Positions 25,204 through 27,746 of a DNA stretch of 35,364 bases are shown one piece after another. The translations under genes and the position numbers were made by a program. The DNA comes from an uncultured Haliea sp. (lineage in GTDB: Bacteria > Pseudomonadota > Gammaproteobacteria > Pseudomonadales > Halieaceae), in assembly GCA_947258585.1 (NCBI GenBank), contig CAMYIZ010000011.1, positions 1 through 35,364 on the forward strand, written 5' to 3'. A model generated the notes under the pieces. It made no database searches. It had not been told where the DNA came from and saw only the letters and a program-made list of their open reading frames with translations. The first letter of the stretch is position 1, and each line of letters begins with the position of its first letter.

Positions 25204-26244
25204 CTAGCCGGCCGCGGCGTCCCGCTCCCGCGCCATGTCCAGCGCCAGATCCTCGATCATGTCCTCCTGGCCGCCCACCGTGCGCCGGCGACCCAGTTCC
25301 ACCAGGATATCCCGTGAGGACAGCCCGTACTTGGCCGCACTGCGCTTGGCAAACAGCAGAAAACTGGAGTAAACGCCGGCCCAGCCCAGGGTCAGCGAGT
25401 CCCGATCCACCCGCACGATATGGTCCATCAGCGGCACGATCAGGTCCTCGGCCACGTCCATGGCCTTGAACAGGTCGACCCCGGTCTCCACGCCCATGCG
25501 GTCACAGACCGCCAGGAACACTTCCAGCGGTGTGTTGCCGGCACCCGCACCCAGACCAGCCAGTGAGCCGTCAATCCGGTTGGCCCCCGCCTCCACCGCC
25601 GCCAGCGAATTGGCAATGCCCATCCCCAGGTTGTGGTGGCCGTGGAAGCCCAGCTCGGTCTCCGGCTTCAATTCCTGCCGCGCGAGCTTGACCCGGGCCG
25701 CCACGTCGTCCGGCAGCATGTAACCGGCGGAGTCGGTGATGTAAACACAGTTGGCGCCGTAGGATTCCATCAGCTTCAGCTGCACCAGCAGCTCCTCCGG
25801 CTCGATCATGTGCGCCATCATCAAAAAGCCCACGGTATCCAGGCCCTGGATCTGCGCCGCCATGCTGATGTGCTGCTCGGAGACATCCGCCTCGGTACAG
25901 TGCGTCGCCACCCGGATCGTGCCGATGCCGCAGTCCACCGCCATCTTCAGGTGATCCACGGTACCGATACCCGGCAGCAGCAGCGCCGACACTTTGGTCT
26001 TGCGCACGGCTTTGCACACCGCGGTGAGGTACTCCTCGTCACTGGCGGCGGGGAAGCCGTAGTTGACCGAGGCGCCGCCGAGGCCGTCGCCGTGGGTCAC
26101 CTCGATCATGGGGATGCCGGCGGCGTCCATAGCCACGGCGATGTCCACCATCTCGCTGACGGTGATCTTGTGCTGCTTGGGGTGCATGCCGTCGCGCAGG
26201 CACATGTCGTGGACGGTGATTTTCTTGCCTTGCAGGTTCATCAT
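25204..26244 (-). CDS. dmpG: 4-hydroxy-2-oxovalerate-type aldolase (DmpG/BphI/HsaF family)
   Basis: 346 residues from the ATG at 26244, with GGGAG 8 bases upstream; 49 earlier codons are open but fall in the repeat region. The enzyme splits 4-hydroxy-2-oxo acids into pyruvate and an aldehyde, which passes to the partner dehydrogenase. Family signatures: [15 protein letters not shown] at the N-terminus (metal-binding Asp), and [15 protein letters not shown] with two metal-binding histidines. The partner acetaldehyde dehydrogenase gene lies 593 bases upstream, an unusually large gap for two proteins that form one complex. HsaF in steroid degraders is the same family. Confidence 0.93.
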
Positions 26245-26318
26245 CTGTTCTCCCGGAACATTATCTGAGCTGGTAACAGGGCTTTTGGGAAGCCGCTTGG
26301 AGCTTCGATTCGGCTCCG

Positions 26319-26432
26319 GGCGCGCCGAACGTGGTGGGGCTGGCTGGACACGCCGTGAATACATCCATGTAGGCTCGGATGCGACATCCATGTCGCATAC
26401 GGTCCAGCCAACCCCACCACGCCCGGCACGCC
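26319..26432. repeat. Large palindromic element, copy A
   Basis: Arms 26319-26349 and 26402-26432 (31 bases each) pair with only four mismatches. All four would be G-U pairs in RNA copied from the minus strand, the direction of the surrounding operon. The 52-base interior holds two further perfect stems: TACAT/ATGTA with a CC loop (26360-26371), and a nine-base-pair stem with a CC loop (26379-26398). Folded, this gives a three-way junction. The element lies in non-coding DNA between two genes of one operon. It shares its interior with copy B in the opposite orientation. Confidence 0.85.
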
Positions 26433-26582
26433 CTCTGTCTGTGAATCAAGTCTCGTGGCTCATACCGCCTGCGAGTCCTTTAAACCGGTACTCCACGCAA
26501 TTTGATGCTCGTGGACCCAATACCGCTGTTGTTGTGCCCCGGATAGAAAACCTTGCTCGATACTCACTCCGTGCGAGGCACC

Positions 26583-26622
26583 GGCGCTGGGGTGGGCCTG
26601 CCGGGACCGGATACGACACCCA
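26583..26622. repeat. Possible decayed half of the same palindromic element
   Basis: The run GGGACCGGATACGACA resembles GGGACCGTATGCGACA of copy B with two differences, and a GC-rich arm-like stretch precedes it. No matching second arm is found, so this would be a degenerate half copy. Confidence 0.3.
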
Positions 26623-26687
26623 TAACTCAAATGGTACTGGTTCAGGCGCGAAAAAAAGCCCGAATTTCCCTCTCAAGGAGGCGTCAA

Positions 26688-26797
26688 CACCGGTGCGCGC
26701 CCTCCGGGACCGTATGCGACATGGAAGCGCGGGGCCGCCCAGGCTCCGAGCCCCCATGGATGGGTTCACGGCGTGTCCCGGAGGGCGCGCAGCGGTG
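26688..26797. repeat. Large palindromic element, copy B (inverted relative to copy A)
   Basis: Arms 26688-26710 and 26775-26797 (23 bases each) pair with one mismatch. The arm sequence is unlike that of copy A, yet the interior ends are identical in the opposite orientation: ACGCCGTGAA and GGCTCGG at one end and CATGTCGCATACG at the other. The first inner stem reads CCCAT/ATGGG instead of TACAT/ATGTA, which is two compensated base pairs. The second inner stem is broken: one half is replaced by GC-rich sequence. The rest of the 593-base gap (26245-26837) holds no gene I can support. Confidence 0.83.
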
Positions 26798-26837
26798 GTG
26801 GCGCCGTTTTCGAAGTGCCCATAATCGCTGCCTCCAA

Positions 26838-27746
26838 TCAGGCCGCCTGCGGCACAAACGTGCCGGCGAGTATCTGCTCCGCGTACATCTCCGCCGTCCG
26901 CAGCCCCGCCGCGGTCATGATATCCAGGTTCCCCGCATAGCGCGGCAGGAAGTCCCCCAGCCCGGCGACCTCCATGTAAATGCTGACCTTGTTGCCATCG
27001 AACACCGGGCCGTTTTTCAGGGTGTAGCCGGGCACGTATTGCTGTACCTCCGCCACCATGTCGTGCACGGACTTCGTGATCGCCGTCTGGTCGGGTTCTT
27101 CCAGCGTCAGGCAGTGGATGGTGTCGCGCATGATCAGCGGCGGCTCCGCCGGGTTGATCACGATGATCGCCTTGCCCTTCTGGGCGCCGCCGATCAGCTC
27201 CACGCCGCGGGCGGTAGTGCGGGTGAATTCGTCGATGTTCTTGCGGGTGCCCGGGCCCACGGACTTGGAGCTCACGGTGGCCACGATCTCGCCGTAGATG
27301 ACCGTCTGCACCCGGCTCACGGCCGCCACCATGGGGATGGTGGCCTGGCCACCGCAGGTCACCATGTTCACGTTCATGGCTTTCGCGGCCACGGCGTCGT
27401 GCAGGTTCACCGGCGGGATGCAGAAGGGGCCGATGGCGGCGGGCGTCAGATCTATCATTACCGCGCCCTGCTCGTTCACCTTGCGGCTGTTTTCCGCGTG
27501 CACATAGGCCGAGGTGGCGTCGAAGCAGATCTGGATATTGTCCTCGCGCATGTGCGGCACCATACCGTCCACACCGTCGCAGGTGGTCTTGATGCCCATG
27601 TCCTTCGCCCGGGCCAGCCCGGGGGAGTCGGGGTCAACACCCACCATCCACACGGGCTCGACCAGTTCGCTGCGCATCGCCTTCATCAACAGGTCGGTGC
27701 CGATATTGCCGGGGCCGATGATGGCCGCCCTGATTTTCTTGCTCAT
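26838..27746 (-). CDS. dmpF: Acetaldehyde dehydrogenase, acylating (DmpF/BphJ/HsaG family)
   Basis: 302 residues. It oxidises the aldehyde from the aldolase to an acyl-CoA with NAD and CoA, acetyl-CoA or propionyl-CoA depending on the substrate. The NAD-binding loop is GPGNIG (11-16), and the catalytic cysteine is Cys131 in [10 protein letters not shown]. It normally forms a channelling complex with the aldolase, here encoded further downstream beyond the repeat region. Because the aldolase and dehydrogenase families have the same form in phenol, biphenyl and steroid pathways, the substrate is inferred only from neighbours. Confidence 0.94.

Follow-up and report, generated by a model that had tools for sequence, protein, structure and literature searches.

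Two palindromic elements, here called A and B, lie between two genes in a stretch of 35,364 nucleotides (nt) of DNA from an uncultured Haliea sp. (contig CAMYIZ010000011.1; this whole stretch is called the window), and they raise the question of what kind of element keeps its fold while its sequence changes. A previous description made from the letters of the DNA alone (the sequence-only reading) had presented them as having a common core and unrelated, self-complementary arms, and this description proved real: the covariance model R1, whose 71 sequences include A, matches A at 26319-26432 on the plus strand (E 7e-29), exactly the extent first proposed, and also matches B, which is outside R1's sequences, on the minus strand (E 7.6e-18). 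The place proposed for B was correct and its extent (26688-26797) was not, B being slightly longer (26680-26805). The interpretation offered in that reading is supported in part. We consider it probable, at roughly 0.65, that A and B are two divergent representatives of a superfamily of mobile hairpin repeats that is widespread in Gammaproteobacteria and includes YPAL/Ysr224 and probably TwoAYGGAY as well. The three-way fold of R1 recurs end to end in 21 of 21 Yersinia loci (E 6.4e-16 or better), which were chosen by the core pattern described below and none of which is part of R1, and the Yersinia loci L081 and L085 score 126.5 and 100.9 on their TCC strand, above the cut-off of 70, with the Rfam family RF02770 (Ysr224).

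A dispersed family around a common core

The core pattern CGTGAANNCATCCATGNNGGCTC was written from A and B themselves with the stem positions left open, and both cores fit it without mismatch; at up to three mismatches, it matches the window at A and B only, where 0.02 matches would be expected. Because the pattern was derived from A and B, the real test is the presence of further copies in the genome. The genome of the window has the pattern at 22 places (up to three mismatches), of which two are no elements and two others (L018 and L019, at contig ends) are identical in sequence and probably represent a single copy, leaving about 19 copies; looser patterns yield a few more. The pattern is present in 30 of the 58 genomes searched, this genome counted, and the carriers among the matches listed include Stenotrophomonas, Xanthomonas, Marinobacter, Methylotuvimicrobium, Rheinheimera, Yersinia, Sodalis, Microbulbifer and others. 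When no more than one mismatch was allowed, Methylotuvimicrobium buryatense 5G had 573 copies, two S. maltophilia genomes had 98 and 92, Yersinia similis had 64, X. euroxanthea 44 and Y. proxima 7, and the reversed core pattern, used as a control, gave none in all 12 genomes. Among plasmids, just one record with a partial match was found, and phages and E. coli gave none at the limits used. The sequence-only reading had held that many copies with compensating changes would support a structured family and had named a lack of further copies as what would speak against it; further copies are found in its own genome and in other Gammaproteobacteria. Two loci (L047 and L054) hold tandem arrays of four copies with similar arms, at a spacing of ~354 and 180 bp.

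On the strand of A, the element is laid out as a 5′ arm of ~31 nt, an ACGC bulge, CGT, GAA, stem 1 (NNC-RTCC-NTG-NN), GGCTY, stem 2, ACG and a 3′ arm. In A, the 5′ outer arm of locus-specific sequence (26319-26349; inverted repeat I2, structure of alignment A1) is followed on the plus strand by the ACGC bulge of the outer helix (26350-26353; alignment A1), stem-loop 1 of the TA type (TACATCCATGTA, 26360-26371), whose loop is GGA on the other strand, stem-loop 2 with the closing ACG (26377-26401) and the 3′ outer arm (26402-26432). In B, which reads on the minus strand, the 5′ outer arm (26775-26805) and the 3′ outer arm (26680-26710) of inverted repeat I3 enclose stem-loop 1 of the CC type (CCCATCCATGGG, 26753-26764) and stem-loop 2 (26711-26747), which differs in length from that of A by an extra GC-rich insert resembling CTGGGCGGCCCCGCG, a detail that the sequence-only reading had overlooked. 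Inserts of this kind recur in two copies at other loci (L410 and L412) of the related genome G004, and they resemble a recurrent small secondary insertion. The arms of A and B are unrelated in sequence and each pair is self-complementary over ~31 nt; the 31 complementary bases first read in A agree with our measurement (32 nt, 88%), whereas the 23 read in B are in fact 31 (90%). The interior stretches said to be common to both contain a 19-nt exact inverted match (26387-26405 against 26707-26725), and stem 1 differs as described, with TAC..GTA in A and CCC..GGG in B.

Throughout the family, the elements lie almost always between genes, with only 5 of 312 inside predicted genes; for these gene calls, the gene finder used at first, which placed spurious open reading frames over elements, was replaced. 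For elements that share the strand of their upstream gene, the median distance from the stop codon of that gene is 40-46 bp in three of five sets and 74 and 119 bp in the others. Neighboring copies within 500 bp are convergent in 52 of 73 pairs, a set that overlaps with that of S. maltophilia SJTL3 (G062), in which 22 of 22 pairs are convergent (1 of 96 places was left out of the orientation analysis of this genome, its core not being of the family). Fixed convergent orientation as a general rule is ruled out by M. buryatense, where 5 of 30 pairs are convergent. Heterotypic pairing of TA with CC types of stem 1, which looked strict in the genome of the window, was likewise dropped, as the 52 convergent pairs comprise 22 CC/TA pairs, 24 of equal type and 6 of rarer types. 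In the TCC direction, a terminator precedes the element on its 5′ side in 8 of 76 cases in one set (one in each of the other three classes) and in 5 of 42 in another (0, 3 and 2 in the other classes); a link to intrinsic terminators outside Yersinia was set aside as weak, the mixed set giving 4, 4, 6 and 6 of 120.

The fold, the favored strand and change at fixed sites

Over the 71 thinned copies of alignment A1 and model R1, the covariation score is 0.725 against 0.192 for shuffled copies, 1016 cells have changed on both sides against 340 in shuffled copies, and 86.2% of cells are paired against 34.5-41.9% for slid versions. All 31 of the 31 pairs of the external stem (helix 1) have changed on both sides and 83.6% of its cells are paired, a percentage that is partly selected because copies were admitted only if they had the same core length and arms pairing at no fewer than 11 of 14 positions. 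Loci lacking room for both flanks, copies too alike and elements with arm pairing under a threshold (11 or 12 of 14, or 13, 14 or more of 20, depending on the analysis) were dropped before the counts; this last exclusion increases the share of paired positions in the outer stem. Of 197 elements whose arms pair well, 152 have high complementarity over ~28 positions, with a drop near 30.

The two inner stems differ in how far the search has shaped them. Stem 1 is partly fixed by the core pattern, and TCC is invariant there in A1 but is also demanded by the search; stem 2 is free of the pattern. All 111 distinct stem 2 sequences fold into a hairpin, and on the opposite strand 110 of these have GGA in the loop or at most 2 nt from it, a feature that the search did not demand. 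This loop has the form A(N)GGA or AGGA in 104 of the 111, where ~9% would be expected from composition, and AYGGAY is the commonest spelling, with others occurring. The G004 counterpart of A (L177) and a query segment from L008 carry, at the same place in stem 1, an extra hairpin-like insert of ~24 nt resembling ACACCCGATAAAGCGGGGTGGGCTC; in many M. buryatense copies, among them L267, L276 and L373, an additional hairpin that contains words such as GGATGGCGTGAATGCAGATTTTGCA is nested in stem 2 and enlarges it, and it resembles another dispersed repeat.

The mismatches are asymmetric between strands. In 129 elements with arms less than 70% alike, the plus strand has 149 A.C against 28 G.T mismatches, 98 T.C against 15 G.A, and 40 C.C against 3 G.G, whereas shuffled pairings give ratios of 1.24, 1.15 and 1.37 for the same comparisons; the mismatches tolerated on the other strand, which carries GGA in its loops, are thus G.U, G.A and G.G. 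With RNA parameters, this GGA strand has the higher stability in 83 of 103 elements, and with DNA parameters in 82 of 103. Between codirectional genes, elements of either direction have a similar asymmetry (37 vs 8 and 40 vs 2), as do those between convergent genes (44 vs 10), and it is weak for the 12 elements between divergent genes (6 vs 4). We take the long-term mismatch pattern to reflect selection for folding of the GGA strand. Deamination of C was rejected as the whole cause: in young M. buryatense copies, read on the GGA strand, C>T exceeds G>A (51 vs 27, tight clusters), and A-T pairs also change, with A>G over T>C (24 vs 10, three clusters), yet the transversions of the largest cluster run the opposite way. 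The proposal that A and B form a folded RNA is possible and unproven; pairing is favored on one strand, a preference that RNA and single-stranded DNA explain about equally.

At fixed sites, the fold could be followed through time in ten loci of the window's genome (two of twelve were left out) compared with the relatives G004 and G024. G004 has an element in the same gap at 10 of 10 loci and G024 at 5 of 10, one of the five being reduced to a single hairpin. The arm comparison with G004 covers nine of the ten loci, in which 13 of 15 elements were alignable, and 390 arm positions: 295 are unchanged, 51 have changed on one side, 35 have changed on both sides and still pair, and 9 have changed on both sides otherwise, so that 35 of 44 two-sided changes keep the pairing (the partner of one element was a tandem copy, and this adds to the one-sided changes). 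Arm changes lacking compensation had been named as a finding that would refute the structured family; this outcome did not occur, and together with the covariation over 71 copies, the compensated changes at the same sites in two genomes strongly support the claim that structure is kept while sequence changes.

The cores behave differently from the arms. At L004, one element has arms identical over all 60 letters and a core that is 83% alike, which indicates that the core has been exchanged; at L005, the core runs in the opposite direction in G004. At one Stenotrophomonas locus, genomes of differing identity to the query have three principal arm alleles in common (two genomes have a fourth), and in one genome the core is inverted between kept arms. 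In the window's genome, near-identical cores have unrelated arms (14 pairs, mean arm identity 0.44, against 0.49 for other pairs), none of the 8-letter flank words is common to 3 or more of 20 copies, and the arms vary from site to site; arms follow the core in M. buryatense (0.85 vs 0.56) and in S. maltophilia (0.77 vs 0.52). The idea that arms are target hairpins or inverted target duplications was rejected; the arms form part of the unit that is repeated in Yersinia and in M. buryatense. An empty site for testing the origin of the arms was sought, and none was close enough, the G024 gaps without an element being too diverged. In two of the G024 comparisons (L420 and L427), a DnaB-like coding sequence is split by ~1.2 kb, possibly an intein, which in G024 reads through at the point where the query goes on.

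At the window's own locus, A and B are flanked by the genes for 4-hydroxy-2-oxovalerate aldolase (25204-26244, minus strand, TIGR03217) and acetylating acetaldehyde dehydrogenase (26838-27746, minus strand, TIGR03215). Between the two elements lies a relic at 26575-26618 on the minus strand, the 3′ half of an older element (repeat D1; comparison with L177); at this place G004 has a complete element, and it also has A-like arms with a different core. Of 30 loci fetched around the gene at this locus, 6, including the window's own, have an element matching the pattern. Upstream of the acetaldehyde dehydrogenase gene of G009 (L184, 1029-1190), there is a different repeat, TGTAGGGTCGAATTCATTCGACCACCCGGA..., in four tandem copies 44 bases apart.

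Known families and repeat ends

The nearest members have been described in Yersinia and in Rfam, so elements of this kind are already known. YPAL is said to have been reported originally as inserting at terminator-like sequences, and it has been suggested to act as a hairpin in the 3′ untranslated region (3′UTR) that alters the stability of the upstream message. According to a review, YPAL measures ~168 bp, contains inverted repeats, duplicates 3-26 bp of its target and has targets that span or adjoin dyad symmetry (PMC2229807). In Y. similis, all 23 copies examined (of 64) measure 166 bp between end motifs; 12 of the 23 have 14-25 bp, in most cases a complete stem-loop, duplicated at the opposite side, and a stem of at least 6 pairs stands beside the 5′ end in 15 and beside the 3′ end in 17, compared with 10 of 138 control windows. 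These copies are likened to YPAL/RU-2 by description only, in size, duplications and dyad targets, and this likeness refers to the Y. similis copies; the window's genome has just the core in common, with arms that vary by site. Outside Yersinia, copies match RF02770 below its cut-off, on either strand and alongside unrelated hairpin families.

The name of TwoAYGGAY (RF01731) refers to two terminal loops with AYGGAY on the modeled strand, and our elements resemble it in their GGA loops, including those of nearly all stem 2 sequences, and in an external stem that is poorly conserved in sequence. In the window's genome, RF01731 gives five matches at E of 10 or less, none over its cut-off of 43; four of the copies are matched in full length on the GGA strand (E 3.1e-5 to 0.036) and the fifth in part, and among 20 loci the scores are 36.4 and 34.0. 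The family differs in its Rfam type, which is cis-regulatory RNA and not dispersed repeat. A 2010 paper regards TwoAYGGAY as probably RNA and probably not cis-regulatory (PMC2864571), and a 2014 paper proposes, from motif matches, that it binds CsrA (PMC4333381).

The ends of the repeats are less uniform than the core. Within 1.2 Mb of M. buryatense, 202 copies comprise three large arm families (81, 50 and 37 copies), two small ones and singles. Subfamily III-a has the ends CAGCAATTCCC...GGGAATTGCTG and 9-bp duplications, with 8 or 9 of 9 positions agreeing in 16 of 20 copies, in which it is similar to MITEs; the difference is that the same core is enclosed in this genome by four kinds of ends, the other three (6, 76 and 10 copies) being without clear duplication, and the core is therefore not bound to one kind of repeat. 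One could go further and regard the core of ~52 nt as a self-standing module that sits at the tips of palindromes of different origin, is exchanged or inverted between arms and is recognized on one strand, its host being a palindrome and not a gene or transposon family. The four kinds of ends in one genome and the unrelated locus-specific arms in another suggest this extension, which we nevertheless regard as doubtful.

In the literature searched, which left subscription journals mostly outside, no paper joins YPAL, Ysr224 and TwoAYGGAY or describes the family outside enterobacteria. As far as this search reached, what is new is the breadth of the family, the presence of one core within different kinds of ends, the fact that cores are exchanged and inverted, and the preference for one strand, to which we add the divergence of arms with compensation at fixed sites and the GGA in the second loop.

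Candidate readers of the fold and rival explanations

The data show that the GGA strand is kept better able to fold into a three-way junction, in which a long rod of ~30 pairs of free sequence carries two short hairpins that both present GGA. They also show that copies reach new positions between genes, which in Yersinia typically lie within or next to terminator-like hairpins that are often duplicated, and that settled copies can persist long, their arms changing partly in compensated pairs and their cores being exchanged or inverted between kept arms. We infer from this that a protein reads the fold through its pair of A(N)GGA loops. As its likeliest candidate we regard CsrA/RsmA acting on transcripts of the GGA strand, a plausible but tentative proposal of putative binding. 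The high-affinity ligand of CsrA, RUACARGGAUGU, is nearly the TA type of stem 1 on the GGA strand, and the elements have the features of CsrA/RsmA-type sites, with GGA in hairpin loops and two sites per element.

Several results weigh against this reading and its proposed reader. CsrA is found in 32 of 32 well-assembled genomes, carriers or not, and the 3 of 43 genomes that lack a match are 66-88% complete and include one carrier; present in carriers and non-carriers alike, CsrA is uninformative here. In the window's genome (G000), four CsrA-family matches exceed the curated cut-off, a number that equals that of G013 and exceeds those of the other 41 genomes searched. A simple scan of the gap holding A and B found no sigma-70-like promoter or terminator, the missing promoter being the adverse point. 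With the Rfam models, A scores 31.1 against the cut-off of 70 for Ysr224 and 33.2 (E 0.0036) for TwoAYGGAY, whose best own copy reaches 42.3 (E 3.1e-5) and thus falls just short of 43, and an all-Rfam scan of positions 26000-27000 of the window did not list RF01731. Several microRNA families and C4 score as high below their cut-offs on the same long hairpins; as unrelated families match equally, such sub-threshold matches are unspecific and carry little weight alone. The two Rfam families also point to different strands, TCC for the two Ysr224 loci over the cut-off and GGA for TwoAYGGAY. Single copies between codirectional genes run with the genes in 41 cases and against them in 45, and this lack of direction bias, with the inversion of cores in place, fits poorly with a cis-acting RNA. 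Finally, the one-strand preference of young M. buryatense copies is just mild for transitions, and in the largest cluster that for transversions is absent or reversed (G>T 27 vs C>A 9 and A>C 13 vs T>G 0 on the GGA strand).

The lack of direction bias and the inversion of cores would be natural if the GGA strand were single-stranded DNA, the substrate of a recombinase or transposase with no RNA involved. A mismatch asymmetry that hardly depends on gene direction agrees with this view, as do the greater stability of the GGA strand with DNA parameters too and the hairpins that are often the targets in Yersinia; G.A and G.G are favored about as strongly as G.T, which, by the known stabilities of DNA mismatches, fits DNA at least as well as RNA. 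Nevertheless, no such enzyme was found, one M. buryatense subfamily has ordinary terminal repeats with 9-bp duplications, and the replication-strand bias of one genome (35 vs 16 singles if position 0 is taken as the origin) failed to recur in M. buryatense (97 plus and 76 minus) and was dropped; overall, we judge a purely single-stranded DNA element to be rather unlikely. The same orientation data bear on a cis-acting role in messenger RNA, in which the element would be a 3′UTR hairpin that alters the stability of the upstream message. Such a role would account for the location outside genes and the short distances behind same-strand stop codons, and several Ysr224 copies are differently expressed in Y. 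ruckeri, according to one report (PMC12112432). However, single copies in codirectional gaps have no sense bias, the favored pairing strand is antisense for about half of them, and the orientation flips at a fixed site, which together make this role quite improbable.

It is also conceivable that no selection acts on the fold, template-switch copying keeping the arms complementary and just the core mattering for mobility. Arms that change in concert, with most double changes still paired, and cores that invert, as expected from recombination between arms, would follow from such copying, which predicts neither the one-strand mismatch asymmetry nor the compensated changes in core stems 1 and 2; one-sided arm changes are moreover common, so that any correction of the arms is not immediate, and we consider this explanation very doubtful. 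The sequence-only reading had thought of a hairpin handled by a REP-type (Y1) transposase. The elements do resemble REP/BIME/REPIN sequences in being dispersed extragenic palindromes that form opposite-orientation pairs in some genomes, with a fixed arrangement in S. maltophilia SJTL3, but they are longer, with free arm sequence and a three-way junction unlike REPs. A link to RAYT-type transposases failed to appear: PF01797 has no match in the genomes of the window and of G065, both carriers, and 95 matches to it were found elsewhere, of which 30 Y1 loci were retrieved with flanks of at most 1.5 kb at either end, none holding an element; we consider movement by such an enzyme extremely improbable.

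Should single-stranded DNA turn out to be the substrate, a hairpin-targeting enzyme remains to be found. If instead CsrA reads the element, M. buryatense would have over a thousand dispersed potential CsrA sites, given 573 copies with two loops each. The mismatch-asymmetry test indicates the selected strand without expression data. Membership of A and B in the proposed superfamily would join a mobile repeat of Yersinia, a Yersinia small RNA family and probably an orphan Rfam motif into one family with hundreds of copies per genome. This family would provide a natural experiment on structure without sequence, in which the same sites in related species hold arms that are wholly different and yet paired.
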